A stretch of DNA of 60,861 nt from an uncultured SAR86 cluster bacterium (lineage in GTDB: Bacteria > Pseudomonadota > Gammaproteobacteria > Magnimaribacterales > D2472): contig CACLMT010000008.1 of assembly GCA_902608115.1 (NCBI GenBank), positions 1 to 60,861 on the forward strand, in the 5' to 3' direction. Both the position numbers and the translations under genes were made by a program. Of the stretch, positions 7,750 to 54,739 are shown piece after piece. Every line of letters starts with the position of its first letter. Positions within the stretch are counted from its first letter, which is position 1. The notes below the pieces were generated by a model. It searched no databases, had not been told where the DNA came from, and saw only the letters and a program-made list of their open reading frames with translations.

Positions 7750-8628
7750 ATGAAAGATTTTAAGGGCAAATTAGCTGTTGTAACAGGCGGAGCATCAGGA
7801 GTTGGTTTTGCAATCAGTGAATCATTAATGAAAGAAGGAGCAAAAGTTATCCTTGCTGATATTGAAGAGAAGACTCTTGAGGAATCAAAAAATAGACTGT
7901 TAGATTTATCTCAAGATGTTGATTGCAAGGTAGCAGATGTTTCTAATGCAAATTCTATGCATGAATTAGCTGATTGGTGCCAATCTAATTATGGCCCGGT
8001 TCATTTATTATTTAACAATGCTGGAGTAGCCCCAGCTGAATTATTACCAATATGGGAAACCAAGCCTAATGATTGGCAATGGGCATATGGTGTTAATGTA
8101 ATGGGAGTGCTTCATGGCATCCAAGCTTTTGTTCCAAGAATGCTTGCCCATGGAGAAGATAGTAGAGTGATTAATACTTGCTCAGGTAACGGAGCATTTA
8201 TTAATCTTCCATCCACTCCTATTTATACTTCATCCAAAGCATCAGTTTCAAGTATTTCTGAAGTTCTAAAATTACAACTTGAGCAAGCTAATGCAAATGT
8301 GAAAGTTTCTATATTATTTCCAGGGCCTCATACAGTTAGAACAAACCTATTTTCTGCTGAAAGAAATAGACCTGAAGAACTTGCGAGGGACCCTAATGCC
8401 CCAGAGCATCCTATTTCATCTGTAGAAGATATGATAGAAATGATGAGTTCCATGGGGATTGAAATGGAGACAACCGAGCCTAATGAAGTTGCAGTCTTTT
8501 GTTTATCAGAAATTAAAAAAGGCAATTATTGGATTAACCCAAAGAATGAGAAAAGTGAACAAGCTTTTAAAGATAGGGTTGAATCAATAATTAATCGCAC
8601 TGATTTGCCTAATCCAAATATTTTTTAA
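7750..8628 (+). CDS. short-chain dehydrogenase/reductase
   Basis: 292 residues, slightly longer than a core SDR because of a C-terminal extension. The cofactor motif T-G-G-A-S-G-V-G is near residue 12 and N-N-A-G near residue 92. The catalytic serine lies in T-C-S-G-N-G and the catalytic Y-T-S-S-K is near residue 160. The aspartate after the second beta strand (L-A-D-I) favours NAD over NADP. It lies between the ADC-family gene and the P450 gene in one operon, 13 nt after the former and 5 nt before the latter. It probably oxidises an alcohol in the same pathway; the substrate is not deducible. Confidence 0.85.
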   Translation: MKDFKGKLAVVTGGASGVGFAISESLMKEGAKVILADIEEKTLEESKNRLLDLSQDVDCKVADVSNANSMHELADWCQSNYGPVHLLFNNAGVAPAELLPIWETKPNDWQWAYGVNVMGVLHGIQAFVPRMLAHGEDSRVINTCSGNGAFINLPSTPIYTSSKASVSSISEVLKLQLEQANANVKVSILFPGPHTVRTNLFSAERNRPEELARDPNAPEHPISSVEDMIEMMSSMGIEMETTEPNEVAVFCLSEIKKGNYWINPKNEKSEQAFKDRVESIINRTDLPNPNIF

Positions 8629-8633
8629 ATATT

Positions 8634-9866
8634 ATGAATAACCTGGAATCTATTAAAGTCGATCATTTTTTTAACCCTTCTTCTAAGGATTTTATCCATA
8701 ATCCTATTCCTACTCTTGAGAAGTTAAGTGAAGAGTTTCCGATAGCGAGATTTGATGCTTGGCAGGCTTGGTTGATTTCAGGCCATGAAAATATTCTTAA
8801 TTGTTTATTAGATAGAAGACTTTCAACTGATTTTAATTTATGGGAATTTGCTCCTGATAAAAAACCCGTTGAAGAAATGGATGCATTTGAAAAATTAATG
8901 AATAACAACTTATTTTTTTTAGATAGGAAGAATCATTTAAGATTAAGAAAGCTAGCTCTTCCGGCTTTTTCTCCAAGGATTATGGAGAGAATGAAGGAAA
9001 GATTTCAAATTCTTGTGAAAGAACGTTTTGATGAGATTGGTACCCCTGATAGTTTTAATTTCGCAAAGGAGATAGCAGAAATTTTCCCATCTCAAGCCAT
9101 AGCAAGTCTTGTAGGCATTCCAAGAGATAAATTTCCTATCTTTGATTCGCTTGCTTATGGAGTAGTAAGGGGGATTAATCCAATGTTAACCCCTGATGAA
9201 AGAAAGGAAGCTATTAGAGGCGTCCCAGAAGGCTTAAAGCTCCTAAATCAATTAATTGATGAGAAACGAGCTCAACCAGGCGATGATTTTTTATCAACAT
9301 TGATTTTAGCTGAGGATGAGGGTTCTAAATTATCGAATATGGAGATGTGTGCTCTTGTTGGAGCAGTATTGGGAGCTGGATCTGATACAGCAGTAGATTT
9401 ACATAGCTATTTAATAAAAAATCTACTTAATCATCCTGAAGAATTAAAAGCATTGAAAGCTGATGAAAGTTTAGTACAAGGAGCTATTTCTGAAACTTTA
9501 CGATATGAATCCTCAGGTAAAACTGGTCTTGCAAGATATGCTTCTGAGGATTTAGAAATTAATGGCTATCAAATTAAGAAGGGTCAAATGGTTCAATTAA
9601 TTTCAACTACCACAGGTATGGATCCTAAAGTTTATGAAAATCCTAGGAAATTTGATATTAAACGAGACCATGATAAGAGTTTGTCTTTTGGGCAAGGCCC
9701 GCATTACTGTATAGGAGTAACATTAGTTAGATCTCAAACAGAAGTTATGTTAAAAGAATTATTTAAACGTTTTCCTAATCTAAGTCTTGGTGATGAAATC
9801 AAGTATAACTATGACCATCATAATGCAAGAAGAATGGAAGTTATGATGGTAAATACCAATCTATAA
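8634..9866 (+). CDS. cytochrome P450
   Basis: 410 residues, the normal length of a soluble bacterial class I P450. The I-helix oxygen-activation motif is G-A-G-S-D-T (near residue 248), the K-helix E-T-L-R is near 285, and the haem-ligand loop S-F-G-Q-G-P-H-Y-C-I-G places the axial cysteine at residue 359. There is no membrane anchor. It needs a ferredoxin and reductase that are not encoded here. As the last gene of the ADC-SDR-P450 operon it would hydroxylate a hydrophobic substrate, possibly a terpenoid, fatty acid or steroid side chain. The subfamily cannot be assigned by eye. Confidence 0.93.
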   Translation: MNNLESIKVDHFFNPSSKDFIHNPIPTLEKLSEEFPIARFDAWQAWLISGHENILNCLLDRRLSTDFNLWEFAPDKKPVEEMDAFEKLMNNNLFFLDRKNHLRLRKLALPAFSPRIMERMKERFQILVKERFDEIGTPDSFNFAKEIAEIFPSQAIASLVGIPRDKFPIFDSLAYGVVRGINPMLTPDERKEAIRGVPEGLKLLNQLIDEKRAQPGDDFLSTLILAEDEGSKLSNMEMCALVGAVLGAGSDTAVDLHSYLIKNLLNHPEELKALKADESLVQGAISETLRYESSGKTGLARYASEDLEINGYQIKKGQMVQLISTTTGMDPKVYENPRKFDIKRDHDKSLSFGQGPHYCIGVTLVRSQTEVMLKELFKRFPNLSLGDEIKYNYDHHNARRMEVMMVNTNL

Positions 9867-13658: not shown

Positions 13659-14117
13659 GTGGAACAAGAAAAGTACACTCAAAAACAAGAAAAAACCGCA
13701 AGACAAGTTATTAAATATTTTGCAAAATTACAAGCAAGTGTTTTTTTGCTTTCTAGTGGTAAGCTTTGGAACAAATGGTCTGGAGGATACGACATAATGG
13801 TTGTTAGAACAGAAGGCGCCAAATCAAAAAAAGTTATAAATATTCCATTGATTTATGTTCATAAGGATGGATTGCCAATTTTAGTAGCATCTATGGGCGG
13901 GATGCCAAATAATCCAAGTTGGTACTATAACGTGAAAGCAAACCCTCAAGTTGAAGTTACTACCCCACAAGATTCAGGAACTTTTATTGCAGAAGAGCTA
14001 TCAAAAGATCAAAAGGAAGAATTATGGCCTTTAATCTGTTCTTTTTATCCAGATTATGAGACTTATCAAAATAATACTTCAAGGGAAATTCCTGTATTTT
14101 TATGTAAAGAAGTATGA
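13659..14117 (+). CDS. DUF385/DDN-type nitroreductase-family deazaflavin-dependent protein
   Basis: 152 residues from a GTG start 6 nt after gcdH. The split-barrel pattern (G-Y-D-I-M-V-V-R-T-E-G-A-K-S-K-K, then P-I-L-V-A-S-M-G-G-M-P-N-N-P-S-W-Y-Y-N-V-K-A-N-P) matches the nitroreductase family that includes F420-dependent Ddn of mycobacteria. Family members outside actinobacteria may use FMN, haem or unknown cofactors. No F420 biosynthesis genes lie in this window, so cofactor use is open. It overlaps the ABC ATPase gene by 4 nt (ATGA), suggesting one transcript with gcdH and the exporter genes. Confidence 0.8.
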   Translation: MEQEKYTQKQEKTARQVIKYFAKLQASVFLLSSGKLWNKWSGGYDIMVVRTEGAKSKKVINIPLIYVHKDGLPILVASMGGMPNNPSWYYNVKANPQVEVTTPQDSGTFIAEELSKDQKEELWPLICSFYPDYETYQNNTSREIPVFLCKEV

Positions 14118-20583: not shown

Positions 20584-21771
20584 ATGTCTAAAAAAAATGA
20601 TATTTCAATACCATCTGCTGATGAGTTATATAAAAAGGCTAAAAAGCTTCAACCTGCATTGTTGAAAAGGGCTGAGCAAACTGCAGAACTTAGAAGGCTG
20701 CCCGATGAAACTATTCAAGATTTTAAAGATTTAGGTTTTTTTAAAATACTTCAGCCAATCAGATGGGGTGGTTATGAAATGGATCCTGTCGTTTTTTATA
20801 AGGTGACTAGTATACTTGCTGAAGCTTGTATGTCGTCAGCTTGGGTTTTTTCTATTGTGGCTGTGCATAATTGGCAAATTTCTGTTTTTGACGAACAAGC
20901 GCAACAAGATGTATGGGGGGAAGATAACTCTGTCTTAATATCATCCTCATATGCACCTAAAGGTATTGCTAAACCTGAAGGAGATGGCTACAGAGTTTCT
21001 GGGGAATGGGATTGGTCATCAGGGAGCGATCATTGTAATTGGTTTTTTGGTGGTGCTGTTTTGGATCCCTCAGTTGGATTTGATAGTTTCGTAACTTTAT
21101 TAATACCTAGAGATGATTATGAAATTATTGATAATTGGCATGTATACGGTTTAAAAGGCACAGGTAGTAAAAGAATCAAGGTTGATGGAGCTTTTGTTCC
21201 AAATTATAGAATTCATTATTTGAAAGATGCATTTTTAACAAATAGTCCAGGAAATAAAACAAATCCTGGTCCATTGTATAAATTTCCCTTTGGTCAGGTT
21301 TTCACTCATTCAGTAGCTATACCTGCGCTTGGAGCCTATAAAGGTGCCTTAGACTGTTTTATTGAAGGCGCCAGATCTAGAGTATCTAGTTTTGGAGTCG
21401 AAGCAAAAACTAATCCCCTAACTTCAACTTTAATATCTGAAATCACTTTAGAAATTGATGAAATGTGGAATACAGTAGAGGCTAACTTTAAAGTTATGCA
21501 GAATGCGGTGAATACTTCAAAAGAAATAGATATTAATGATCGAATTAAATTTCGATATCAAGTCGGTGTAATTAATGACCGTTGCGTAGCTGGTGCTTTG
21601 AGACTGGTTAAGGCAAGCGGAGGTTCAAGCGTTTTTCTTGGTCACGAAGTAATGAATAAGTTTATAGATATTATGACAACCCAAGTTCATGTTGCTAACA
21701 TTTCTGATCCTTTTGCAATTGACTATGGTTTAAGCGTGTTAGGCGGTGAGACTGAAAATTTAATGCTTTGA
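20584..21771 (+). CDS. hsaA: HsaA-like flavin-dependent monooxygenase (acyl-CoA dehydrogenase fold)
   Basis: 395 residues. Segments R-R-L-P-D-E-T, G-F-F-K-I-L-Q-P-I-R-W-G-G, V-H-N-W-Q-I-S-V-F-D-E-Q-A-Q-Q-D-V-W-G-E-D and I-S-S-S-Y-A-P-K-G agree closely with what I recall of HsaA, the oxygenase of 3-HSA hydroxylase in steroid A/B-ring breakdown. The C-terminal T-T-Q-V-H-V-A-N region carries a conserved histidine. HsaA uses reduced FMN made by a separate reductase (HsaB), absent here. A strong ribosome binding site (AGGGAGAAGG) precedes the ATG. It leads an operon with KshA-like (20-nt gap) and KstD-like genes, which strengthens the steroid reading. Other two-component phenol hydroxylases are the alternative. 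Confidence 0.82.
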   Translation: MSKKNDISIPSADELYKKAKKLQPALLKRAEQTAELRRLPDETIQDFKDLGFFKILQPIRWGGYEMDPVVFYKVTSILAEACMSSAWVFSIVAVHNWQISVFDEQAQQDVWGEDNSVLISSSYAPKGIAKPEGDGYRVSGEWDWSSGSDHCNWFFGGAVLDPSVGFDSFVTLLIPRDDYEIIDNWHVYGLKGTGSKRIKVDGAFVPNYRIHYLKDAFLTNSPGNKTNPGPLYKFPFGQVFTHSVAIPALGAYKGALDCFIEGARSRVSSFGVEAKTNPLTSTLISEITLEIDEMWNTVEANFKVMQNAVNTSKEIDINDRIKFRYQVGVINDRCVAGALRLVKASGGSSVFLGHEVMNKFIDIMTTQVHVANISDPFAIDYGLSVLGGETENLML

Positions 21772-21791
21772 TTATCGAGAGGTAGGCTTAT

Positions 21792-22832
21792 ATGAATTCA
21801 ATACCAGTTAGACAAATAGATCAAACTCCTCCTCCAGATAGATATGCTAGAGGATGGCATTGCCTGGGGCTAAGTAGTACGTTTAAAGATAAACCAATCG
21901 CAGTTACAGCATTCGGTACTCGTATTGTGGTTTTTAGGAATTCTGCAGATCAAGCAGTTGTTCTTGAAGCAACTTGCCCTCATATGGGAGGTGATTTGAC
22001 GATGGGAAAAGTAGATGGTGATGTTGTCAGATGCCCTTATCATGAATGGGGCTGGGGTGCAGAAGGTATGTGTTTAGATATCCCATATGCAAAAAAAATT
22101 CCTAAAGGTGCAAGAATTAAAAGTTGGCCAGTGTGCGAGGAGAACCACTTACTTTTTATTTGGAATGATCCTGAGGGAATGCCTCCAAAAGATGATGAGA
22201 TAGTTCCTAGAGAAGATGCTGCTTTTGCAGATGATTGGTCTGATTGGGTTATTGAAGAAAATATAATTCATATTAATTGCAGAGAGTTAATAGATAACAT
22301 GTCAGATAAAGCTCATTTTGCTAGTGTGCATGGTTTAAAGGCCCCAACTCTTTTTAAGAATATATTTGAAGCTCACAAATTAACTCAGCTGATGAATGCA
22401 GAAAATGATGTTGGGTCTGAGTTTGGTGAGGGCGGAGAATTGAGATCTTCAGCTACATATTATGGACCAGCATATATGATAGCAGCTATAGATAATGAAG
22501 CTGCTGGTTTTTCACATAGTTCAATACAATTAGTGAGTCATGTTCCCATTGATAGAGATAGCTTTTTGCTTCGTCATGGCGTAAAGGTTCAAAATATCCC
22601 ACATTTAAGTGAAGAAGAAAACAAGGCAGTTATTGAGGAGTATACCGAGATGACGCAGTTGTCTTTTAAACAAGATGTGGCAATTTGGCATAACAAATTT
22701 AGAGTAGACAATCCGTTATTATGTGATGGTGATGGTCCTTTGCATAAGCTTAGGGAATGGTATAACCAGTTTTATATTGATAGAAATCAAGTCTCAAAAA
22801 AACTAGAAAAACGCAAAGAATACATAGCATAA
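21792..22832 (+). CDS. kshA: KshA-like Rieske oxygenase (3-ketosteroid 9alpha-hydroxylase oxygenase)
   Basis: 346 residues. The start region R-Y-A-R-G-W-H-C-L-G and the Rieske ligands Cys62, His64, Cys81 and His84 (C-P-H-M-G-G-D-L...C-P-Y-H-E-W) follow the KshA pattern. The mononuclear iron site is D-N-M-S-D-K-A-H-F-A-S-V-H-G near residue 170, and the C-terminal D-N-P-L-L...L-R-E-W-Y-N-Q-F-Y-I-D is also KshA-like. KshA hydroxylates C9 of 3-ketosteroids, which with delta1 dehydrogenation opens ring B. Its reductase KshB is not in the window. It sits between the HsaA-like and KstD-like genes (10-nt gap to the latter), as expected for one pathway. Confidence 0.85.
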   Translation: MNSIPVRQIDQTPPPDRYARGWHCLGLSSTFKDKPIAVTAFGTRIVVFRNSADQAVVLEATCPHMGGDLTMGKVDGDVVRCPYHEWGWGAEGMCLDIPYAKKIPKGARIKSWPVCEENHLLFIWNDPEGMPPKDDEIVPREDAAFADDWSDWVIEENIIHINCRELIDNMSDKAHFASVHGLKAPTLFKNIFEAHKLTQLMNAENDVGSEFGEGGELRSSATYYGPAYMIAAIDNEAAGFSHSSIQLVSHVPIDRDSFLLRHGVKVQNIPHLSEEENKAVIEEYTEMTQLSFKQDVAIWHNKFRVDNPLLCDGDGPLHKLREWYNQFYIDRNQVSKKLEKRKEYIA

Positions 22833-22841
22833 AATTTATTT

Positions 22842-24566
22842 ATGGCTAAAAATATTAATCAATTTGACGAAGTAGTTGATGTGTTGGTTGTGGGAACAGG
22901 ATGTGGAGGATTAACTGCTGCATTAACAGCTAGCATTTTAAATCCATCTAAGGTTTTAGTTATAGAAAAAAGCCATCTTATTGGCGGAACGAGTGCTATA
23001 TCTGGGGGAGTTATTTGGATTCCTGATAATCACCTCGCTGTAGAGAGTGGTGCAGATGACTCAATTGCAGAGGCTAAAGAATATCTGAAAGCTACCATTC
23101 CATTGGATGAATTCAACGAACCTTTGATTGATGCTTATCTTAAGAATGGTCCAAAGATGGTAAGGTTTATGGAAGATAATACAGATGTTAGGTATACCAG
23201 TCTTGAACATTATCCAGATTATTTTCAAGATGCGCCCGGTGTTAAACTTGGGAATAGAGCGCTTGAACCGTTACCTGTTTCGGCTAAAACTCTAGAAGAT
23301 GATGTTGATAATCTTCATCCATCAGGACCTCAAATAATACTATTTGGAAGGTATGTTGTAAATTTTAAAGAGTCCCATGCATTTACAACTCAATCACCAG
23401 GTTGGTTTAGGCTATTTATAAAAATATTTTTAGCCTATTGGTTAGATATACCATGGAGAATAAAGAGAAAAAGATCTAGAAGATTAGCATTTGGAGCAGC
23501 ATCAGTAACTAGGTTAATTTCTTCAACAAAAAAAAGAAATATTCCCATTTGGAGATCAACTGAATTAAAGGAATATATTATTGATAATAAAAGAGTTGTA
23601 GGTGCAGTTATAAAGAAAGATGACAAGTTGATGAGAATTGGAGTTCGTCGAGGTATTATTGTTGCTTCAGGTGGTTTTGGTCAAAATCAAGCTATGAGGG
23701 AAGAGTATTTACCTCAACCAACAAATGCTGATTGGGGCTGTGAGCCAAAAACTAATACAGGAGATCCCATTAAAGCTGCAGAAGCTATTGGGGCACAGTT
23801 AAAATTTATGCATAAAGCATGGTGGGTTACAACAGTAAAAGCGCCTGATGAGGATTTTCCTAGACTCAGTGAAGTGGAAAAATCAATGCCGGGAAACTAT
23901 ACAGTCAATAAATCTGGGAAACGTTTTGCTAATGAGTCTCAAAACTATCTTACTTTTATGCTTGAAGTATTAAAAAAACAAGAACAAGGAGAGTCTTTTA
24001 CCCCAATGTATATGATTTTTGATTCCAATCATCGAAAAAATTATCCGGTAGGACCCCTTATGCCAGGCAAGTTTTTTCCAGATCCTCTAGTAAAGTTCGT
24101 TCATAAAAATTGGTTTAATAATGATTTTATTACTCGAGCGAGTTCTATTGAGGAGCTTGCAAAAAAAACAGGTATAAATCCTGATGGATTAGTAGAAACA
24201 ATTCAAAAAGTTAACGAATTTTCAAAAACAGGCAAGGATCTAGATTTTCAAAGAGGCGATAATGAAAGAGATAGATTCTCTGGTGATCAAAGACTCGTTA
24301 ATCCTTGCCTAGGCCCAGTTAATCAGGCCCCATATTATGCGATGAGAATAGATCCTGGAGAATTTGCTACATGCGGAGGTATGGTCATAAATGAAAATGG
24401 CCAAGTCATGGATCAAAATAATGATCCAATACCTGGGTTATATGCTTCTGGAAACTGTACTCCAGCCTTACTTACTACCTATCCAGGTCCTGGAGCTACG
24501 ATTGGGCCTGCAATGACATTTGGATTTATTGCTGGTAAACATATTAGCGGGTCAAATATTTTATAG
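22842..24566 (+). CDS. kstD: KstD-like FAD-dependent 3-ketosteroid delta1-dehydrogenase family protein
   Basis: 574 residues. The FAD site D-V-L-V-V-G-T-G-C-G-G-L-T-A-A near residue 13 is followed by E-K-S-H-L-I-G-G-T-S-A-I-S-G-G. The C-terminal T-Y-P-G-P-G-A-T-I-G-P-A-M-T-F-G motif near residue 550 keeps the tyrosine and glycine expected for keto-enol activation in KstD. This family desaturates C1-C2 of 3-ketosteroids using a quinone or other acceptor. Residues ~185-215 contain a hydrophobic and then strongly basic stretch (W-F-R-L-F-I-K-I-F-L-A-Y-W, then K-R-K-R-S-R-R), possibly a membrane-contact insert. The operon with HsaA- and KshA-like genes supports the call; a fumarate-reductase-like enzyme is the alternative. 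Confidence 0.8.
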   Translation: MAKNINQFDEVVDVLVVGTGCGGLTAALTASILNPSKVLVIEKSHLIGGTSAISGGVIWIPDNHLAVESGADDSIAEAKEYLKATIPLDEFNEPLIDAYLKNGPKMVRFMEDNTDVRYTSLEHYPDYFQDAPGVKLGNRALEPLPVSAKTLEDDVDNLHPSGPQIILFGRYVVNFKESHAFTTQSPGWFRLFIKIFLAYWLDIPWRIKRKRSRRLAFGAASVTRLISSTKKRNIPIWRSTELKEYIIDNKRVVGAVIKKDDKLMRIGVRRGIIVASGGFGQNQAMREEYLPQPTNADWGCEPKTNTGDPIKAAEAIGAQLKFMHKAWWVTTVKAPDEDFPRLSEVEKSMPGNYTVNKSGKRFANESQNYLTFMLEVLKKQEQGESFTPMYMIFDSNHRKNYPVGPLMPGKFFPDPLVKFVHKNWFNNDFITRASSIEELAKKTGINPDGLVETIQKVNEFSKTGKDLDFQRGDNERDRFSGDQRLVNPCLGPVNQAPYYAMRIDPGEFATCGGMVINENGQVMDQNNDPIPGLYASGNCTPALLTTYPGPGATIGPAMTFGFIAGKHISGSNIL

Positions 24567-24600
24567 CCTAATTCATGCTTTTTACTATGCGAGCGTATTT

Positions 24601-26199
24601 ATGAAGAAAAGAAGAGAATTTTTTTTAAAAAGCTTTATAGGTGTTGTAGGTACAGGCTTACTTCTTGGCTCAAAAAGACAATTTAAAGATGATAATAATT
24701 TTATATGGCATGGTGAAACAGATATTGCAGTTATTGGAGCAGGAACAGGTTTAGTTGGAGCGATAACAGCGTTAAAAAAAGGATTAAGAGTTGTAGTATT
24801 AGAGAAAGCCTCTTCACCTGGAGGTACCACAGGTATTTCAGGAGGAGTTGCTTGGGTTCCAAATAATCATGTTATGAAAAGGGAAGGATTTACTGATTCA
24901 AGAGTTAATTCTTTAAAATATCTCAATCAACTTTCTCAAGGGCAGGCTGATCAAGAATTAATTGAAGCATTTGCTAAAGAGGGACCAAGGATGGTTAAGT
25001 TTATAGAAGATAACACCTCTTTAAGATGGAGGGTCTCAAAAATTATGGGGGAAGCTTCGGAGTATCATACAGATTGGGAAGGAAGTGTTCTAAAAGGTCG
25101 AAGTATTGAACCTGATACTGATGGACCTATTGGAGCTCATTTCGGCGGGGTTTTAATCTCTTATTTATTAAAAACCTTTAAAAATTTAGGTGGAAAAATA
25201 CTTTTAGATGCGCCAGCTATAAAATTAATTAGCAGAGACAATGAAGATGGTTCAACTGAAGTTCTAGGAGTCTCATATAGTTCAAAAGGAAAGGTATTTA
25301 ATTTAAAAACAAAAAAAGGAGTTCATTTAGCAAGTGGGGGATTTGATCATAATATACAAATGAAAAAAAATTTTTTATCAGTTCCATCTTATGGGGTCGG
25401 AGTTAAATCAAATACTGGAGATGGCATAAAGATGGCAATGAAGCTAGGTGCTGACTTAAGAAATATGAACGAAGTTTGGGGAAGTGTGGTCTACAAAGGG
25501 GAGGCTGAAGTATTAGGGTCTTTGAATGCGGTAACTGAAAAAAAATATTATGCTAGTTGTATTTTAGTAAATCGTTATGGAAATAGATTTTCAAATGAGA
25601 AGGCAGATTATGATTCTTCATGGCGTTCGTTTCATGCAAAAGAAAATTGGGGCGCTTTAAAATACAAAAACATACCAGCTTTTCAAATATTTGATCATAA
25701 AGTAAGGCTCAACGGAACTTTGGCTGGCAAAAAATTTGATCAGGCATTGCCTAAGTGGTTTTTTAAATCTAACTCTATAGAAGGGCTAGCAAAAAAATTA
25801 GGTATAAATCAGAATAACTTAAAATCAACTATTTCTAATTTTAATAAAAATGCTTTGTTAGGAATAGATCCTGATTTTCATAGAGGAGAAACTCATTATG
25901 ATAGGATGGGTCTCGATGACCATAGTTTAGCTCTTCAACCACTTGATGTGCCTCCCTTTTATGGAGCTGAAATAGCTCCTGCTCATTTAGGAACATGTGG
26001 AGGCCCTAGAGTTAACAAATTTTCAGAGGTATTAGATGTAAATGAAATTCCCATTCAAAGGCTATGCGCCTCTGGAAATTCTTCTGGGGTAGGGTCTCCA
26101 GGACCTAGTTATGGTGGAGGGGGTGGAACAATTGGTCCAGCACTTACTTTCGCATATATCGCTGGAAAAACTTTATCTTCTCTGGAGGATTGGGTTTAA
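24601..26199 (+). CDS. Tat-exported KstD-like FAD-binding dehydrogenase
   Basis: 532 residues from the ATG at 24601; an upstream in-frame start at 24520 would overlap the previous gene and spoil the signal peptide. The N-terminus K-K-R-R-E-F-F-L-K-S-F-I-G-V-V-G-T-G-L-L-L-G is a twin-arginine signal, so the folded flavoprotein should be exported to the periplasm. The FAD motif I-G-A-G-T-G-L-V-G is near residue 45 and the C-terminal S-Y-G-G-G-G-G-T-I-G-P-A-L-T-F-A near residue 508 keeps the KstD-type tyrosine. It follows the cytoplasmic KstD-like gene by 34 nt and appears to be its paralogue. A periplasmic steroid dehydrogenase or fumarate-reductase-like role are both possible. Confidence 0.78.
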   Translation: MKKRREFFLKSFIGVVGTGLLLGSKRQFKDDNNFIWHGETDIAVIGAGTGLVGAITALKKGLRVVVLEKASSPGGTTGISGGVAWVPNNHVMKREGFTDSRVNSLKYLNQLSQGQADQELIEAFAKEGPRMVKFIEDNTSLRWRVSKIMGEASEYHTDWEGSVLKGRSIEPDTDGPIGAHFGGVLISYLLKTFKNLGGKILLDAPAIKLISRDNEDGSTEVLGVSYSSKGKVFNLKTKKGVHLASGGFDHNIQMKKNFLSVPSYGVGVKSNTGDGIKMAMKLGADLRNMNEVWGSVVYKGEAEVLGSLNAVTEKKYYASCILVNRYGNRFSNEKADYDSSWRSFHAKENWGALKYKNIPAFQIFDHKVRLNGTLAGKKFDQALPKWFFKSNSIEGLAKKLGINQNNLKSTISNFNKNALLGIDPDFHRGETHYDRMGLDDHSLALQPLDVPPFYGAEIAPAHLGTCGGPRVNKFSEVLDVNEIPIQRLCASGNSSGVGSPGPSYGGGGGTIGPALTFAYIAGKTLSSLEDWV

Positions 26200-48391: not shown

Positions 48392-50056
48392 ATGCATACA
48401 GATACTTACATTCAAAATTTAATAAAAGATCAATCTTTTTTTGAAATTCATCAAGAGACAGTTCTTGGAATTGAAATGGAGGTATTTAAAAATCGACCAC
48501 GGTCATTGGTTGATTTTATAGAGTTATCTGTATCCCATGGGGATCAACCATATCTAATTTATGAAGATAGAGTAATAAGTTTTGAACAACATTTCCATTT
48601 AGTAAAAAGAATAGCTTATTTATTAGTTCATTCTTATGGTATTAAGCCTGGTGATAGGGTTGCAATTTATGCAGCTAATGCTCCGGAATGGATTATCTTT
48701 TTTTGGGCAACAGTTGGAATTGGTGCAATTGCGTGTGGTTTAAATGGTTGGTGGAAAGGTGAAGAAGCAATAAATGCTATTAATTATGCTGATCCCAAAT
48801 TAGTTGTCGTTGACTCAAAACGTTATGAAAGAATTAAAGATGATTTAAATTATCAAACTTATAATTTTGAAATTAGTGATCTGTCAGAATTAGAGAGCGA
48901 GCTTGAAGAATTTATCAGAGTTGATGAAGATGATTGCGCATGTTTACTTTATACATCTGGTACTACCGGAACTCCTAAGGGAGTTATGACATCTCATAGA
49001 TCGATGATAGCTAATTCAACTTTGCAAATGTTGCAAGGAGCTGCTGTTTCTCAGTATGCTACTAAACAAGGTATAGATTGGTTTGTTAATAACCCAATGA
49101 GCCTTTTAACATCTCCTTTATTTCATGTGTCTGGATTATCTGCTGGAGCAGTAACGAGTCTTTTTGCTGGATCTACAACTATTCTTTATAAAGGTAGATT
49201 TAATTCTAAAAAAGTTTTAGATTTAATCATCCAATATAAAGTTACCTCATGGGGTGGAGCCGTTCCAACTGCATTAAAAAGAGTTCTTGATAGCGCAGAT
49301 CAGTTGACATTAGATTTATCAAGCATGCTAGTTATTGGAGGCGGCGGCGCGCCTATGCCAGCTGAATTAATTGATAGAACAAAAAAAATATTTTCAAGTT
49401 CGCGCTATAGTTTTGGTTATGGCTATGGTTTAACAGAATCAGGAGCAATTACTCTTGTAAATTGGGGAGAAGAGTTAGAGAAAAATCCATCATCTCCGGG
49501 ACAACCAATGCCAACTATTTCAGTTCAGCTAAGAGACGAAAATAATAATCTTATTAAAGAAGATCAAAAAGAAGGTGAGATCTATGTTAGAAGCCCTTCA
49601 GTAATGCTTGGTTATTTTAATAATTCAAAAGCTTCTTCAGATTCATTAACAAATGATAGATGGTTAAAAACTGGAGATTGGGGATATAGGCAAGGTCAGA
49701 TATATTTTATTTCTTCTAGGCGCACAGATTTAATTCTACGTGGCGCAGAAAATGTTTACCCTCAAGAAATAGAATTAATCTTAGACTTACATCCTGGGGT
49801 TATTGAATCAGGGGTGATTGGAGTTCCTCATGATGACTTAGGTGAAGAGGTTATGGCTATCGTTGTTACTAATAATAAAAAAAATATTACTCAAAATGAT
49901 TTAGCTCAATGGGTTTCTTCTAAATTAGCAGATTTTAAAGTTCCATCTAAATGGAAATTAATTAATGAAAATCTACCAAGAAATGCTTCAGGAAAATTAA
50001 TGAAACATGTTTTAATAGACGCATCTAAAAACACCATGGTTGAAGAAGATGACTAA
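48392..50056 (+). CDS. acyl-CoA synthetase (class I adenylate-forming)
   Basis: 554 residues. L-L-Y-T-S-G-T-T-G-T-P-K-G-V is near residue 188, Y-G-Y-G-L-T-E-S-G-A near 345, T-G-D-W-G-Y near 427 and the C-terminal lysine lies in R-N-A-S-G-K-L-M-K near 533. The N-G-W-W segment near residue 117 is shared with the synthetase at 37765. As the first gene of an operon of DUF35, thiolase-fold and crotonase genes it should load the pathway's acid substrate onto CoA. The next gene starts inside its last codons (ATG at 50049), so translation is coupled. Confidence 0.9.
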   Translation: MHTDTYIQNLIKDQSFFEIHQETVLGIEMEVFKNRPRSLVDFIELSVSHGDQPYLIYEDRVISFEQHFHLVKRIAYLLVHSYGIKPGDRVAIYAANAPEWIIFFWATVGIGAIACGLNGWWKGEEAINAINYADPKLVVVDSKRYERIKDDLNYQTYNFEISDLSELESELEEFIRVDEDDCACLLYTSGTTGTPKGVMTSHRSMIANSTLQMLQGAAVSQYATKQGIDWFVNNPMSLLTSPLFHVSGLSAGAVTSLFAGSTTILYKGRFNSKKVLDLIIQYKVTSWGGAVPTALKRVLDSADQLTLDLSSMLVIGGGGAPMPAELIDRTKKIFSSSRYSFGYGYGLTESGAITLVNWGEELEKNPSSPGQPMPTISVQLRDENNNLIKEDQKEGEIYVRSPSVMLGYFNNSKASSDSLTNDRWLKTGDWGYRQGQIYFISSRRTDLILRGAENVYPQEIELILDLHPGVIESGVIGVPHDDLGEEVMAIVVTNNKKNITQNDLAQWVSSKLADFKVPSKWKLINENLPRNASGKLMKHVLIDASKNTMVEEDD

Positions 50057-50498
50057 ACAAGAAACTTTAAAATTACAGGCTCCTTTTGAGCTTTCATATG
50101 ACTACAAGCGATCAAGTGGACCTATTATGTCAAAATTTTTTGAAGCTTTATCTAAAAAGAAGATATTGGGCACTAAGAATGCTTCAGGTAAGGTTTTTGT
50201 TCCAGCTGCTGAGTTTGATCCTAATACAAATGAAGCTTTAACAGAATTTGTTGAGGTTGAATCAACTGGAATTATTGAGTCATGGTCATGGGTAGCAAAT
50301 CCAAAACCTCATCACTTAATTCAGTCTGCATTTGCTTTTGTATTGATTAAATTTAATGGTGCTGATACTTCAATGTTGCATATGGTATCTGAGTGTGCTG
50401 AATCTGATTTGGCTAAAGGAGTTAAGGTAAAACCAGTTTGGTCATCTGACCCCAAAGAGATGATCCTTGATATTAAATATTTTGTTTTAGAAAAATGA
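50049..50498 (+). CDS. DUF35 OB-fold protein without zinc-ribbon cysteines
   Basis: 149 residues from the ATG at 50049 (a TTG at 50040 is a weaker alternative). The N-terminal helix P-I-M-S-K-F-F-E-A-L-S-K-K-K-I-L-G-T and the OB-fold strands follow the DUF35 pattern of its neighbour, but the zinc-ribbon site reads K-N-A-S-G-K-V-F-V-P with no cysteine. DUF35 proteins bind thiolase-fold enzymes and feed or hold the acyl-CoA. A Cys-less copy next to a normal one suggests that the pair forms a heteromer, each serving one of the two thiolase-like proteins. It overlaps the genes on both sides. Confidence 0.75.
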   Translation: MTKQETLKLQAPFELSYDYKRSSGPIMSKFFEALSKKKILGTKNASGKVFVPAAEFDPNTNEALTEFVEVESTGIIESWSWVANPKPHHLIQSAFAFVLIKFNGADTSMLHMVSECAESDLAKGVKVKPVWSSDPKEMILDIKYFVLEK

Positions 50499-50995
50499 AT
50501 CAAGAAGATAAAGAAAAAGATTATTTTGAATCTCCAATTCATTTGGAATATCAATATACTGCTGGTGCGGCTACTACAAGATTCTTAAATAAGGTAAAAG
50601 AAGGAAAATTAGTCGGGCAAGAATGCCCTAAATGTAAGGCGGTCTATGTGCCTCCACGTGGTAGCTGTCCAAGGGATGGTATTGCAACAAATAGGGAAGT
50701 GGAGCTAGTAGATCAGGGCTGTATTGAATCTTTTACCATAGTACACATCCCGATTCCTGGAAATCCAATTGTGCCTCCATATGTTTGTGCAATGATTAGG
50801 CTTGATGGGGCAAACATATCTTTTTTACATCTAGTTGATGGAATTAAATTAACTGATATTCGAATTGGGATGAGGGTTAAGGCAGTCTGGAAACCAAAAT
50901 CAGAATGGAGGCATTCTTTAGAAAATATTAAGTGGTTTATTCCAACTGATGAGCCAGATGTTGATGTTACCAAATTAAGGTTTAAACCAGAATGA
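50495..50995 (+). CDS. DUF35 zinc-ribbon/OB-fold acyl-CoA-associated protein
   Basis: 166 residues. The rubredoxin-like zinc ribbon is intact: G-Q-E-C-P-K-C-K-A-V-Y-V-P-P-R-G-S-C-P near residues 44-63, followed by the OB fold (I-E-S-F-T-I-V-H-I-P). In acyl-CoA C-acetyltransferases, HMG-CoA systems and steroid side-chain aldolases, such proteins form a complex with a thiolase-fold partner. It overlaps the Cys-less paralogue upstream and the thiolase-like gene downstream by 4 nt each, so a physical complex is likely. Confidence 0.88.
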   Translation: MNQEDKEKDYFESPIHLEYQYTAGAATTRFLNKVKEGKLVGQECPKCKAVYVPPRGSCPRDGIATNREVELVDQGCIESFTIVHIPIPGNPIVPPYVCAMIRLDGANISFLHLVDGIKLTDIRIGMRVKAVWKPKSEWRHSLENIKWFIPTDEPDVDVTKLRFKPE

Positions 50996-52047
50996 AAAAA
51001 ATAGCAATAGTGGGCTATGCTCAAAATAAGATCTTAGCTAGTGCTGGTGCATTAAACGAAGTTGAACTTATTATGCCAGTGGTTCATAAGATATTTAATA
51101 ATCTTGGAATAAGTCAAAAGGAAATAGATTTTACATGCTCAGGGAGTTGTGATTATTTACAAGGGGCTGCTTTTGCTTTTGTAGAAGGTTTATCTGCAAT
51201 ACAAACCAACCCACCTATAAAAGAATCACATGTAGAAATGGATGCCGCATGGGCTCTATATGAATCCATGTTAAAGATTCAAATGGGAGACGCTGATACA
51301 GCTTTAATTTATGGATTTGGAAAGTCATCACCTGGTGATCTAGATTCTATTATTTCCTTACAGATGGATCCTTATTATATTTCACCTTTATGGCCTGATC
51401 GTATATCTTTAGCAGCCTTACAAGCACAAGTTTTATTAAACAATAACATTATTAATAAAGATGAGATTATGCACGCTGTTATTGAATCAAGAAATAACGG
51501 TTTGAATAATCTAAATGCTTTAATTCAAACCTCAATAACAGAAGATGAATATCAAAAAGATCTTGTTTTATCTTCTCCCTTGAGAGCTTTAGATTGTCCG
51601 CCTATTTCAGATGGAGCTTCTGCAATGATTATAGCTTCAGAGGATAAAGCCTTTAATTTTTCATCTAATCCTATATGGATTAAAGGGATAGATCATCGAA
51701 TTGAAACTTCTAATTTAGGCGCAAGAAATCTTTCATCATCACCCTCTATCAAAAGCGCCATGAAATCATTAGATATTGAAAATACTGCATTTGATATCGC
51801 TGAGATTCATACTCAATTTAGCCATGAATATCCTTTTTTAAGAAAATTACTCAATCTTGAAAATGTTCCCATAAACCTATCTGGAGGACCTCTCGTAGGT
51901 AATGTCATGATGGCAGCTGGTTTAGATGCTATAGGAAAAGTTTATGAACAACTTTCAACTAATAGTTATAAAAGAGGATTAGCTCATGCTACTTCTGGTC
52001 CTTGTTTACAACACAATATGTTAGTGTCATTGGAGAAAAATTCATGA
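50992..52047 (+). CDS. thiolase-fold (SCP2/lipid-transfer type) protein lacking catalytic Cys
   Basis: 351 residues. Overall order matches SCP-x-type thiolases: N-terminal I-V-G-Y-A-Q, a D-A-D-T-A-L-I-Y-G-F-G-K strand near 100, D-G-A-S-A-M-I near 205 and a C-terminal N-L-S-G-G-P. The nucleophile region, normally N-C-A-S-G, reads H-V-E-M-D-A-A-W-A-L-Y here, and the H-P-x-G-A motif is N-V-M-M-A-A-G, so it cannot be a normal thiolase. It overlaps both neighbours by 4 nt (ATGA). It may be a retro-aldolase of the Ltp2 kind or a non-catalytic subunit paired with the next gene product. Confidence 0.8.
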   Translation: MKKIAIVGYAQNKILASAGALNEVELIMPVVHKIFNNLGISQKEIDFTCSGSCDYLQGAAFAFVEGLSAIQTNPPIKESHVEMDAAWALYESMLKIQMGDADTALIYGFGKSSPGDLDSIISLQMDPYYISPLWPDRISLAALQAQVLLNNNIINKDEIMHAVIESRNNGLNNLNALIQTSITEDEYQKDLVLSSPLRALDCPPISDGASAMIIASEDKAFNFSSNPIWIKGIDHRIETSNLGARNLSSSPSIKSAMKSLDIENTAFDIAEIHTQFSHEYPFLRKLLNLENVPINLSGGPLVGNVMMAAGLDAIGKVYEQLSTNSYKRGLAHATSGPCLQHNMLVSLEKNS

Positions 52048-53192
52048 TTCCAGCTGCTGTTATAGGCGTCGGTCAAACTAATTATAAAGCTAAAAGACGA
52101 GATGTATCCATAGCTGGATTAGTTCGAGAGGCTATTGATAAGGCTCTTCTTGCCTCGGATGTAGAATGGGATGCTATTGATGCAGTGATATTAGGTAAAG
52201 CTCCAGATATGTTTGAAGGTGTAATGATGCCTGAGTTATATCTTGCCGATGCTATTGGGGCAGTAGGTAAACCTGTTATTAGAGTTCATACTGCAGGTAG
52301 TGTGGGTGGAAGCACAGCGATTATAGCGGCATCTCATGTTTGTTCAGGAAAATTTGATACTGTTTTAACAGTAACTTTTGAAAAACAATCTGAATCAAAT
52401 GCTACTTGGGCTTTATCACCTAGATATCCATACTCTCCACATATCAATGCTGGAGCAGGAGGTTACTTTGCGCCGTTTATAAGAGAATACATTCGCAGGC
52501 ATAATCCACCAGAAAATATTGGTTGGAAAGTAGCTGTTAAAGATCGAATCAATGCTCTTAAAAATCCTCTTGCCCATCTTCAAATACTTGGAATAGATGA
52601 AAAAATGGTTAGTGACTCACCTATGTTATGGGAACCATTAAGATACTTAGAAAGCTGCCCATCTTCAGATGGTGCTTGTGCAATGGTTATTGCAAATAAA
52701 AATTTATCTAATTCTAGGAATGCTGCTTGGATAAAAGGGATGGCAGTTAGGTCTGAAGGAACTTTATCTGCAGGAAGAGATGAGGTTAATCCTCAAGGTG
52801 GAATTGATTGCGCAAAAGATATATATAATCAAGCAGGAATAACTAACCCAAGAAATGAAATAGATTGTGCTGAAATATATGTTCCGTTTTCATGGTACGA
52901 ACCAATGTGGTTAGAAAATTTAGGTTTTACTGATATTGGGGAAGGTTGGAAGTTAACCAATGAAGGACTAACCGAGCTAGAAGGAGATCTGCCAATTAAT
53001 ATGTCAGGTGGGGTCTTATCTTCAAATCCTATTGGAGCATCTGGGATGATCCGTTTTGGAGAAGCGGCATTACAGGTAATGGGATTAGCTGAAGACCATC
53101 AAGTGAAAAATGCAAAAGTTGCTATGGGGCATGCTTACGGTGGAGCTGCTCAATTCTTTTCAATGTGGATAGTTTCATCAACAAAAGATTAA
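52044..53192 (+). CDS. thiolase-fold (Ltp2/SCP2-like) protein lacking catalytic Cys
   Basis: 382 residues from the ATG at 52044, which overlaps the previous stop by 4 nt; an earlier in-frame start would lie inside that gene. The fold is that of acetyl-CoA acetyltransferases (V-I-G-V-G-Q-T near residue 6, D-G-A-C-A-M-V near 213, N-M-S-G-G-V-L-S-S-N-P-I-G-A-S-G near 325, G-H-A-Y-G-G-A-A-Q near 362). The nucleophile site reads V-H-T-A-G-S-V-G-G with no cysteine, and tyrosine sits where thiolases have their second cysteine. Loss of these residues is known for the steroid side-chain aldolase Ltp2, which works with a DUF35 partner, as available here. Confidence 0.82.
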   Translation: MIPAAVIGVGQTNYKAKRRDVSIAGLVREAIDKALLASDVEWDAIDAVILGKAPDMFEGVMMPELYLADAIGAVGKPVIRVHTAGSVGGSTAIIAASHVCSGKFDTVLTVTFEKQSESNATWALSPRYPYSPHINAGAGGYFAPFIREYIRRHNPPENIGWKVAVKDRINALKNPLAHLQILGIDEKMVSDSPMLWEPLRYLESCPSSDGACAMVIANKNLSNSRNAAWIKGMAVRSEGTLSAGRDEVNPQGGIDCAKDIYNQAGITNPRNEIDCAEIYVPFSWYEPMWLENLGFTDIGEGWKLTNEGLTELEGDLPINMSGGVLSSNPIGASGMIRFGEAALQVMGLAEDHQVKNAKVAMGHAYGGAAQFFSMWIVSSTKD

Positions 53193-53204: not shown

Positions 53205-54002
53205 ATGAATACCGAACATGCAATTGTAGAAGAAAAAGGCCATACCCTAGTCATAACATTAAATAGACCAGAAAAAAGAAATGCTTTAAGCCCAGGGATG
53301 CTTGTAACAGTTTATGAAGCATGGAGAAAGCTAGATAAAGATTCTAATTTAAGATGTGCAGTTCTTACCGGGGCTGGCGGAACTTTCTGTTCAGGAGCTG
53401 ATCTTAGTGCAATGAAAGATGGTAATGAAGATTCTCAAATGATGGAAAAATTAAAAACAATCCCAGATTTACATTGGCAAGCTTTGTTAAGACATAATCG
53501 TCCAAATAAACCTATTATTGCTGCTGTTGAAGGATTTGCATTAGCTGGTGGAACTGAAATACTTCAAGGTACTGATGTTAGGGTAGCAGGGAAAAGTGCT
53601 GTCTTTGGTTTAACAGAACCTTTGAGAGGGTTATTTCCCCTAGGGGGATCCACTGTGCGATTACGAAGACAAATTCCATATACATTGGCAGCGGAGATGC
53701 TCTTAACTGGTAGACGTATTACCGCAGATGAAGCTAAAAGATTTGGATTAATTGGTCATGTAGTTGAAGATGGAGAAGCATTATCTCATGCTATGACAAT
53801 AGCTGAATCAATAAATGATAATGCTCCTTTATCCATACAGGCAATAGTCAAATCATTAAGAGAATTAGATGAAAGTTACTTAGAAGTAGAAGCATTAGAG
53901 AAAGAACTAGAAATAGGACAACCTATATTTGACACTGAAGACATGATGGAAGGATTGACTGCTTTTGCAGAAAAAAGAAAACCAAAATTTAAAGGGAAAT
54001 GA
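53205..54002 (+). CDS. enoyl-CoA hydratase/isomerase (crotonase family)
   Basis: 265 residues. The oxyanion-hole segments G-A-G-G-T-F-C-S-G-A-D-L near residue 60 and A-L-A-G-G-T-E-I near 112 and the acidic residues in G-G-T-E and L-T-E-P-L-R-G-L-F-P match the crotonase fold with both hydratase glutamates in place. It would hydrate a trans-2-enoyl-CoA. GGAG precedes the ATG (TGGAGAAATAAT). It follows the thiolase-like gene by 12 nt and overlaps the second crotonase gene by 4 nt, as expected for a beta-oxidation-like side-chain route. Confidence 0.9.
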   Translation: MNTEHAIVEEKGHTLVITLNRPEKRNALSPGMLVTVYEAWRKLDKDSNLRCAVLTGAGGTFCSGADLSAMKDGNEDSQMMEKLKTIPDLHWQALLRHNRPNKPIIAAVEGFALAGGTEILQGTDVRVAGKSAVFGLTEPLRGLFPLGGSTVRLRRQIPYTLAAEMLLTGRRITADEAKRFGLIGHVVEDGEALSHAMTIAESINDNAPLSIQAIVKSLRELDESYLEVEALEKELEIGQPIFDTEDMMEGLTAFAEKRKPKFKGK

Positions 54003-54739
54003 GCAAATTATTATCAGACGTCTCTGACAATGTTCAAGTTTTAACTTTTAATAGACCAGAAACTAAAAATGCATTTGATGTAGAATTATTTGAATTATTA
54101 AGAGATTCATTAAATTCTGCTAAAGATAATAGTGATATATTTTCAGTAATTGTTACAGGGTCGAATGATGCTTTTTCTTCTGGGGTAGATTTAACCAGCA
54201 TGCTAGGTAATGCTGGTAATGATTATGAAGAACCATTTGAAACTTGTATTGATGCCCTAGTAGAATTTAATAAACCTCTTATTGCATCTGTTAATGGAGT
54301 GGCTGTTGGTGGAGGTGCAACTATTCTTTTGCATTTCGATAGTGTATTTATTTCACCAAACGCAAAGATCAAATATCCTTTTTCAGATTTAGGGCTTGTG
54401 CCTGAGGTTGGAAGTTCATATTTACTATTTAATTTATTGGGATATCAAAAAGCTTCACAATTATTATTTGAAGCAAATTGGATTAGTGGAAAAGAATTTT
54501 ATGAATTAGGCTTAGCGCAATATGTTGGCGATGATTGTTTTAACCAAGCATTGGAATATGCAAAAAGACTATCTAATCAATCATTGGCGTCTATCATTGA
54601 AACAAAATCTATTCTTAAATCTTTTTACAAAGAAGATATTAAAAAAGCCCGAAAATTAGAAGCTGACGGAATGAAAAAACTTTTTGGCTCTGAAGATAAT
54701 TTAAAAGGTGTTGAAAAGTTTTTTTCAAAGAAAAAATAA
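53999..54739 (+). CDS. crotonase-family protein, delta3-delta2-enoyl-CoA isomerase type
   Basis: 246 residues. The fold motifs S-S-G-V-D-L near residue 60 and N-G-V-A-V-G-G-G-A near 98 are present. The first hydratase glutamate is replaced (G-G-G-A-T-I), while the segment L-G-L-V-P-E-V-G-S-S-Y near 138 places a glutamate as in ECI2-type enoyl-CoA isomerases. It probably shifts a double bond rather than adding water. It overlaps the upstream crotonase gene by 4 nt; the DedA gene follows by 4 nt. Confidence 0.85.
   Translation: MSKLLSDVSDNVQVLTFNRPETKNAFDVELFELLRDSLNSAKDNSDIFSVIVTGSNDAFSSGVDLTSMLGNAGNDYEEPFETCIDALVEFNKPLIASVNGVAVGGGATILLHFDSVFISPNAKIKYPFSDLGLVPEVGSSYLLFNLLGYQKASQLLFEANWISGKEFYELGLAQYVGDDCFNQALEYAKRLSNQSLASIIETKSILKSFYKEDIKKARKLEADGMKKLFGSEDNLKGVEKFFSKKK

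Follow-up and report, generated by a model that had tools for sequence, protein, structure and literature searches.

The 60,861-nucleotide stretch of DNA analysed here (the window), contig CACLMT010000008.1 of an uncultured SAR86 cluster bacterium whose genome assembly measures 1.25 Mb and is 78% complete, carries four overlapping genes, termed A, B, C and D, that encode two DUF35 proteins followed by two thiolase-fold proteins. These genes are probably the SAR86 form of an actinobacterial module composed of a double-DUF35 protein, Ltp4 and Ltp3 (Rv3521-ltp4-ltp3), a putative retro-aldolase for C24-branched sterol side chains. The module itself is known; its occurrence in SAR86, the recurrent fusion and fission of its DUF35 pair and the active-site pattern of D are new here. 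Somewhat short of even confidence, we further suggest that the four proteins may form an obligate four-part retro-aldolase with a third kind of active site (a Tyr base, Asn at the Tyr344/His site and no motif His or Cys) and a conserved pseudo-subunit, each with its dedicated DUF35 protein, which in SAR86 would strip the C24 branch of phytoplankton sterols.

The link to Ltp3 and Ltp4 begins with the protein families. D scored 639.4 bits against the NCBIfam model PRK08313 (cut-off 514), and C matched PRK07937 over its full length with 418.0 bits (cut-off 419), while Pfam gave no match to C at an E value of 0.001. Homologues from Rhodococcus and Spongiibacter clearly exceed both NCBIfam cut-offs; the Rhodococcus homologue of C, 44% identical to C, reached 637.7 bits with PRK07937. 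At an E value of 0.001 this model also gave weak matches, never above the cut-off, in 11 of 14 control genomes, and only strong matches were counted. Four actinobacterial records from a plasmid collection contain counterparts that are 59–67% identical to D and 40–45% identical to C. We infer that PRK07937 corresponds to Ltp4 and PRK08313 to Ltp3 from gene order, length, neighbours, family and published papers rather than from sequences named ltp3 or ltp4. The two DUF35 domains lie upstream in the order ribbon-less then ribbon-type, as in the module, and the annotations of Tsukamurella and Streptomyces clavuligerus show a single gene for the double-DUF35 protein, followed by two thiolase genes, with an AMP ligase nearby in both. 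The Tsukamurella annotation also has a crotonase, a P450 and a steroid 3-ketoacyl-CoA thiolase. The SAR86 genes thus resemble the known module (Rv3521-Rv3522-Rv3523; Rhodococcus rhodochrous) in their families, in the order DUF35-DUF35-Ltp4-Ltp3 and in having EchA19-like and ligase neighbours. They differ from it in that each DUF35 half has a gene of its own, the bacterium that carries them is a SAR86-type gammaproteobacterium and the ligase is closer to the CasG model than to a demonstrated FadD19.

The DUF35 proteins correspond to the two halves of the double protein. B has a DUF35 OB domain (ChsH2) and a zinc-ribbon domain, both above the Pfam cut-offs, whereas the single match of A, to the OB domain, stayed below the threshold (21.1 bits; cut-off 27.1). 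Both halves are held by one open reading frame (ORF) in records of Tsukamurella, Nocardia, Nonomuraea and S. clavuligerus. Across the four plasmid records, A is 33–44% identical to the N-terminal half of this ORF and 25–28% to the C-terminal half, and B is 39–49% identical to the C-terminal and 25–34% to the N-terminal half; for Tsukamurella the values are 44% and 28% for A, and 49% and 33% for B. An earlier note on this DNA had described one DUF35 protein that keeps its zinc ribbon and another that has no cysteine. The division into a ribbon-type and a ribbon-less protein stands, but A has a single cysteine, Cys116, with none in the ribbon region, and B keeps three of the four ribbon cysteines, with Asp in the fourth position. 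A CxxC motif was found in none of 82 aligned A sequences, and in the ribbon of 61 of 85 B sequences (here and below, alignment rows include the window). Homologues of B without the ribbon CxxC include those at 8526–8975 of locus L087 and 8486–8947 of locus L068.

The doubling of both subunit types is a widespread, conserved design and not a one-off. We examined 84 loci, namely the best 80 of at least 587 relatives of C from a scan of genome contigs and the four plasmid-collection records. The 80 contig loci were found with the patterns ESHVEMD[AG] and AWA[LM]YE[ASC][MWF], so that conservation of those stretches of C is partly built in. Left out of the alignments were D homologues below 45% identity or 90% coverage, C homologues below 90% coverage, A and B homologues below 75% coverage, and A in three loci at contig ends. 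The order and strand of A-B-C were kept in all 81 testable loci, and all 82 loci that could be compared have C and D on the same strand; the contigs of the remaining two stop inside C or immediately behind it. The doubling is real and conserved, and the at least 587 relatives rule out a unit peculiar to it. Among the best 80 relatives, the holders are SAR86, Halieaceae, Spongiibacteraceae, Sterolibacterium, Myxococcota/Deltaproteobacteria metagenome-assembled genomes and many Actinobacteria; among the matches listed, the module occurs in records titled Halioglobus, Haliea, Spongiibacter, Zhongshania and Sterolibacterium.

A and B are encoded by one ORF in 28 of the 84 loci and by separate ORFs in 53, A being cut by the contig end in the remaining three. 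When C and D sequences were joined and placed on a tree (77 rows), at least six changes between the fused and the separate state were needed; the tree was made by a quick method and has long branches and 15 open forks. Repeated fusion and fission of the same two neighbours is expected if their products act jointly in a one-to-one manner, and because the two genes are fused in 28 of the 84 loci, their arrangement argues that A and B would work as a pair. The same tree places the window in a nine-row clade with support of 100; of its eight other members, six bear SAR86 titles. Of 151 genomes in the host order, 18 contain D and 19 contain C, including all of those with D; the extra C (genome G008) begins at base 9 of its contig. 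The remaining genomes had neither protein at the thresholds used, so the module is patchy in the order. A search of 398 Pseudomonadota genomes at 1e-60 matched only the window's own genome, with at most five candidates scored in many genomes, which does not amount to absence elsewhere. The D homologue of a relative from the same family as the host (G034:C31:414-1550) contains a single in-frame TAG stop.

Structure models supported a thiolase fold for both C and D. The models, made from the window sequence with 50 of 78 locus sequences for C and 48 of 72 for D, were confident (predicted local distance difference test score 89.5 for C and 89.7 for D; predicted template modelling (TM) score 0.91 each), and the fold was backed by Foldseek. 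As the earlier note had claimed, neither protein has the cysteine that serves as the nucleophile of (Claisen) thiolases. Its site is occupied by E-M-D in C and by H-T-A-G-S in D, where Gly85, within an invariant HTAGSVG, lies opposite the cysteine in the alignment. The one invariant cysteine of C, Cys49, lies away from it in a CSGSxDY motif (fifth residue variable) that is present in all 84 rows and in each of the 19 SAR86 C proteins retrieved without the motif patterns; ESHVEMD, too, was present in 19 of 19 SAR86 C proteins from the protein search. Because the motifs are invariant across phyla, we reject decaying or pseudogene thiolases as an explanation.

Several residues around the expected active site of D were invariant in all 77 rows, including Tyr279, which aligns with the Tyr294 (YDHF) site of TcLtp2, and its YVPF setting. 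Asn328 occupies the place of the second TcLtp2 tyrosine, Tyr344, and the third motif residue is Pro281 (His296 in TcLtp2), each again in 77 of 77 rows. His82 (77 of 77), His363 (71 of 77) and Tyr365 (76 of 77) are candidates for the proton donor. The earlier note had also placed a tyrosine at the usual second cysteine of D, which could not be established: the sequence alignment is unreliable there, and from our reading of the secondary structure it is more likely that Ala364 faces this position, with Tyr365 adjoining. In C, the residue at the NEAF site varies (H in 57 of 84 rows, Y in 21, C in 3, S in 2 and L in 1), and Asn304 at the GHP site is nearly invariant (51 rows), as is Asn328 in D. 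D is thus the probable catalytic aldolase subunit and C a probable non-catalytic pseudo-subunit. Judged by its aligned residues, the combination of Tyr279, Asn328 and Pro281 in D is unlike the active site of Ltp2 or Sal.

These two systems are among the closest known ones. Ltp2-ChsH2 (6OK1), which acts on a C3 side chain, has in common with the SAR86 proteins the thiolase fold, a DUF35 partner and a base Tyr in the NEAF/YDHF place, but consists of a single thiolase-fold type and a single DUF35 type. Its TcLtp2 form uses Tyr294 of YDHF as the base and Tyr344 as the acid (PMC12329534). Sal-Shy (9MYR), which acts on the C5 side chain of bile acids, likewise has the thiolase fold, a DUF35 partner and a base Tyr in YDCY, and the core of its complex is a Sal dimer; CtSal uses Tyr302 and Cys304 of this motif (PMC12329534). 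Cys304 is needed by Sal, whereas D has YVPF, with Pro281 in that place. D is 23–26% identical to four Ltp2-type rows and scored 98–102 bits (cut-off 469) against PRK07855, which we take as the Ltp2 model and whose best matches align with chain A of 6OK1. A catalytic subunit paired with a cysteine-less thiolase-fold subunit is found in ketosynthase/chain-length-factor pairs, an analogy from another family that has no DUF35. The enzymes in the complex that best matches the fold of C keep their catalytic cysteines and have one DUF35 type. That match has a TM-score of 0.92 (by query length), and the complex consists of two thiolase-fold enzymes joined by DUF35 (PMC12329534).

The same genome also has an Ltp2-type gene (475.9 bits against PRK07855) with one DUF35 gene, in a neighbourhood with an acyl-CoA dehydrogenase gene and two P450 genes, and therefore 1+1 and 2+2 systems coexist. 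The retro-aldol reading of the earlier note, modelled on steroid side-chain removal by Ltp2, is plausible and near to the published account of Ltp3/Ltp4, and the unit is homologous to the Ltp3/Ltp4 module; its description as a doubled and diverged Ltp2 is unsupported, because Ltp3/Ltp4 is a separate known pair and the genome has its own Ltp2-type gene with a single DUF35 partner. The Ltp2-type aldolase (locus L112, 1501–3063; C2:130988-132550 of the genome) has YDAF in place of YDHF, with Ala replacing the His of the TcLtp2 motif, and the same is seen in a Spongiibacter homologue (L111). A fourth DUF35 protein (L141, 5807–6229, also on C2) is encoded on the strand opposite to a cluster of ligase, hydratase, dehydrogenase and Ltp2-type genes, at a distance of about 5 kb from the gene for the Ltp2-type protein, with no thiolase gene directly beside it.

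The following mechanism would be consistent with these features. D (Ltp3-type) and C (Ltp4-type) would form a thiolase-fold heterodimer, in which D would carry the working active site and C, as a pseudo-subunit, would complete the pocket. Each would be capped by its own DUF35 protein, B with its zinc ribbon on D and ribbon-less A on C. The resulting A-C-D-B arrangement, which fits the presence of two DUF35 kinds for two thiolase-fold kinds, would resemble the alpha-beta-beta-alpha layout of the Ltp2 and Sal complexes. The substrate is predicted to be the beta-hydroxyacyl-CoA of a C24-branched sterol side chain, cut by a retro-aldol reaction. Tyr279 of D would deprotonate the beta-hydroxyl, followed by cleavage of the C-C bond and re-protonation of the acyl-CoA enolate. 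The adjoining ligase probably activates the side-chain acid, and the hydroxyl may be introduced by the EchA19-like hydratase.

The genetics of Ltp3 and Ltp4 is reportedly due to Wilbrink et al. (2012). In M. tuberculosis, the relevant genes are fadD19 (Rv3515c), echA19 (Rv3516), Rv3521, ltp4 (Rv3522) and ltp3 (Rv3523) (PMC6429209). The ltp4 and ltp3 genes of Nocardioides simplex carry adjacent locus tags, with a predicted KstR site and induction by phytosterol (PMC7807495). According to one review, Ltp3-Ltp4 is a heteromeric aldol-lyase that cuts the C24-branched side chain once this has been carboxylated and hydrated (PMC6678751); another review assigns the carboxylation at C28 to methylcrotonyl-CoA carboxylase (PMC10049677). 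In Rhodococcus, the two proteins are cited as needed for growth on C24-branched sterols (PMC6273163, PMC6678751), and fadD19 of M. smegmatis was needed for branched sterol (PMC6273163).

Some results weigh against this assignment or against parts of it. Knockouts of ltp3 and ltp4 in Mycolicibacterium neoaurum WIII still made 4-HBC from phytosterols, and of six knockouts only that of atf1 failed in this conversion (PMC10398937), which speaks against Ltp3/Ltp4 being indispensable in that strain. M. smegmatis did not depend on echA19 to degrade either cholesterol or sitosterol (PMC6273163). From these observations, the need for Ltp3/Ltp4 may vary between strains or be covered by other aldolases. 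The open-access papers searched yielded no structure or assay of an Ltp3/Ltp4 complex and no paper on its DUF35 partners, stoichiometry or active site. A pairing of two DUF35 proteins with Ltp3/Ltp4, the fusion history, the D active-site pattern and Ltp3/Ltp4 in SAR86 were likewise not found in print, most subscription papers lying outside the search. Among the proteins themselves, C falls one bit below its family cut-off, D is without two of the TcLtp2 features (Asn in place of Tyr344 and Pro in place of His296), and 24 of the 85 B sequences, that of Rhodococcus among them, lack the ribbon CxxC; therefore, zinc binding by B homologues seems dispensable in some loci. The ligase is only 23–30% identical to the best ligase matches in the four plasmid loci and is not a clear FadD19, and it also falls below the CasG cut-off. 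Finally, the published route needs a carboxylase, and profile searches of the window found none beside the module; two carboxyltransferase-type genes are present elsewhere in the genome.

Alternatively, the four proteins could be the same class of hetero retro-aldolase acting on some other branched or polycyclic CoA ester, not on C24-branched sterols. We consider this fairly unlikely. The M. neoaurum knockouts fit it, as do the patchy occurrence in the SAR86 order (18 or 19 of 151 genomes), the presence of the module in Streptomyces, Acidimicrobiia and Myxococcota, organisms whose sterol use was outside this analysis, and the scarcity of the window ligase, which has a homologue of at least 45% identity in only 8 of the 84 loci. 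Against it, D is 59–67% identical to its counterparts in the plasmid records, and the setting is steroid-related: an EchA19-like gene adjoins the module, a KshA-domain gene and HsaA- and KstD-like genes lie in the same window, and the genome carries the Ltp2-type gene with two P450 genes.

The assignment of catalysis to D could be incomplete if C and D were both catalytic with two different sites, C acting, for instance, on the product of D through Cys49 or Glu82/Asp84. The invariance of Cys49 and of the CSGSxDY motif in all 84 rows and all 19 SAR86 proteins, as well as the nearly invariant Asn304 that C shares in kind with Asn328 of D, speak for such an arrangement. We nevertheless regard it as quite improbable, since C has no nucleophile and its NEAF-site residue is variable; moreover, we know of no thiolase-fold enzyme that uses the Cys49 place. 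Lipid transfer without enzyme activity is suggested by the NCBIfam name of PRK07937, 'lipid-transfer protein', which we take to stem from SCP2/SCPx naming. Pfam found no SCP2 sterol-carrier domain in C or D, Tyr279 and YVPF are invariant in 77 of 77 rows, and the Ltp2 PDB chain, also named 'Lipid-transfer protein', is an aldolase (PMC12329534). On these grounds we reject this explanation as highly improbable.

If the four-part retro-aldolase reading is true, the module allows small-genome bacteria of the surface ocean to take the C24 branch off phytoplankton sterols. C24 branching is found in many algal sterols. Ltp3 and Ltp4 are known from genetics, and the conserved A-B-C-D set tells which four proteins to express together; the SAR86 form offers a source that is not a pathogen. 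SAR86 has been described as able to attack steroid side chains (PMC11582366), a view that the SAR86 module sharpens; a word search of the main text of that paper finds no ltp, aldolase, thiolase or DUF35.

The module and its immediate neighbours are listed in Table 1. The four ORFs overlap as the earlier note had reported, and their coordinates are correct: the stop codon of the ligase (50054–50056) lies beyond the ATG of A (50049), giving an overlap of 8 nt, and the A/B, B/C and C/D overlaps are 4 nt each (ATGA).

Table 1. Genes of the four-protein module and its neighbours in the window
Feature	Position	Strand	Remarks
Acyl-CoA synthetase (AMP-binding)	48392..50056	+	best NCBIfam model steroid-24-oyl-CoA synthetase CasG, 560.6 bits (cut-off 750)
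A: DUF35 OB-fold protein without zinc ribbon, 149 aa	50049..50498	+	corresponds to N-terminal half of actinobacterial double-DUF35 protein
B: DUF35 protein with zinc ribbon (Cys44, Cys47, Cys58, Asp61), 166 aa	50495..50995	+	corresponds to C-terminal half of double-DUF35 protein
C: probable Ltp4-type thiolase-fold protein (PRK07937), 351 aa	50992..52047	+	ESHVEMD replaces nucleophile loop
D: probable Ltp3-type thiolase-fold protein (PRK08313), 382 aa	52044..53192	+	Tyr279 at TcLtp2 Tyr294 site
Enoyl-CoA hydratase	53205..54002	+	PRK07799, 370.4 bits (cut-off 316); EchA19 model, 344.7 bits (below cut-off of 400)
Second crotonase-family protein	53999..54739	+	profile matches (Pfam, NCBIfam)

The neighbours recur to different extents. 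Homologues of the EchA19-like hydratase with 45% identity or more occur in 45 of the 84 loci, and in 28 of the 44 loci of at least 19,000 bases. The second crotonase-family protein has matches in 47 of the 84 loci, seven of them at 45% identity or above. Farther away in the window, an HsaA-like monooxygenase gene (359.1 bits; cut-off 450), a KshA-domain gene and two KstD-like genes (KstD matches below the cut-offs) stand in a row at 20584–26199 and are steroid ring degradation genes; a P450 gene is also present. At 13659–14117 the window encodes a member of the F420H2-dependent quinone reductase family (PF04075, 107.8 bits), which we had not expected in a small marine gammaproteobacterial genome.

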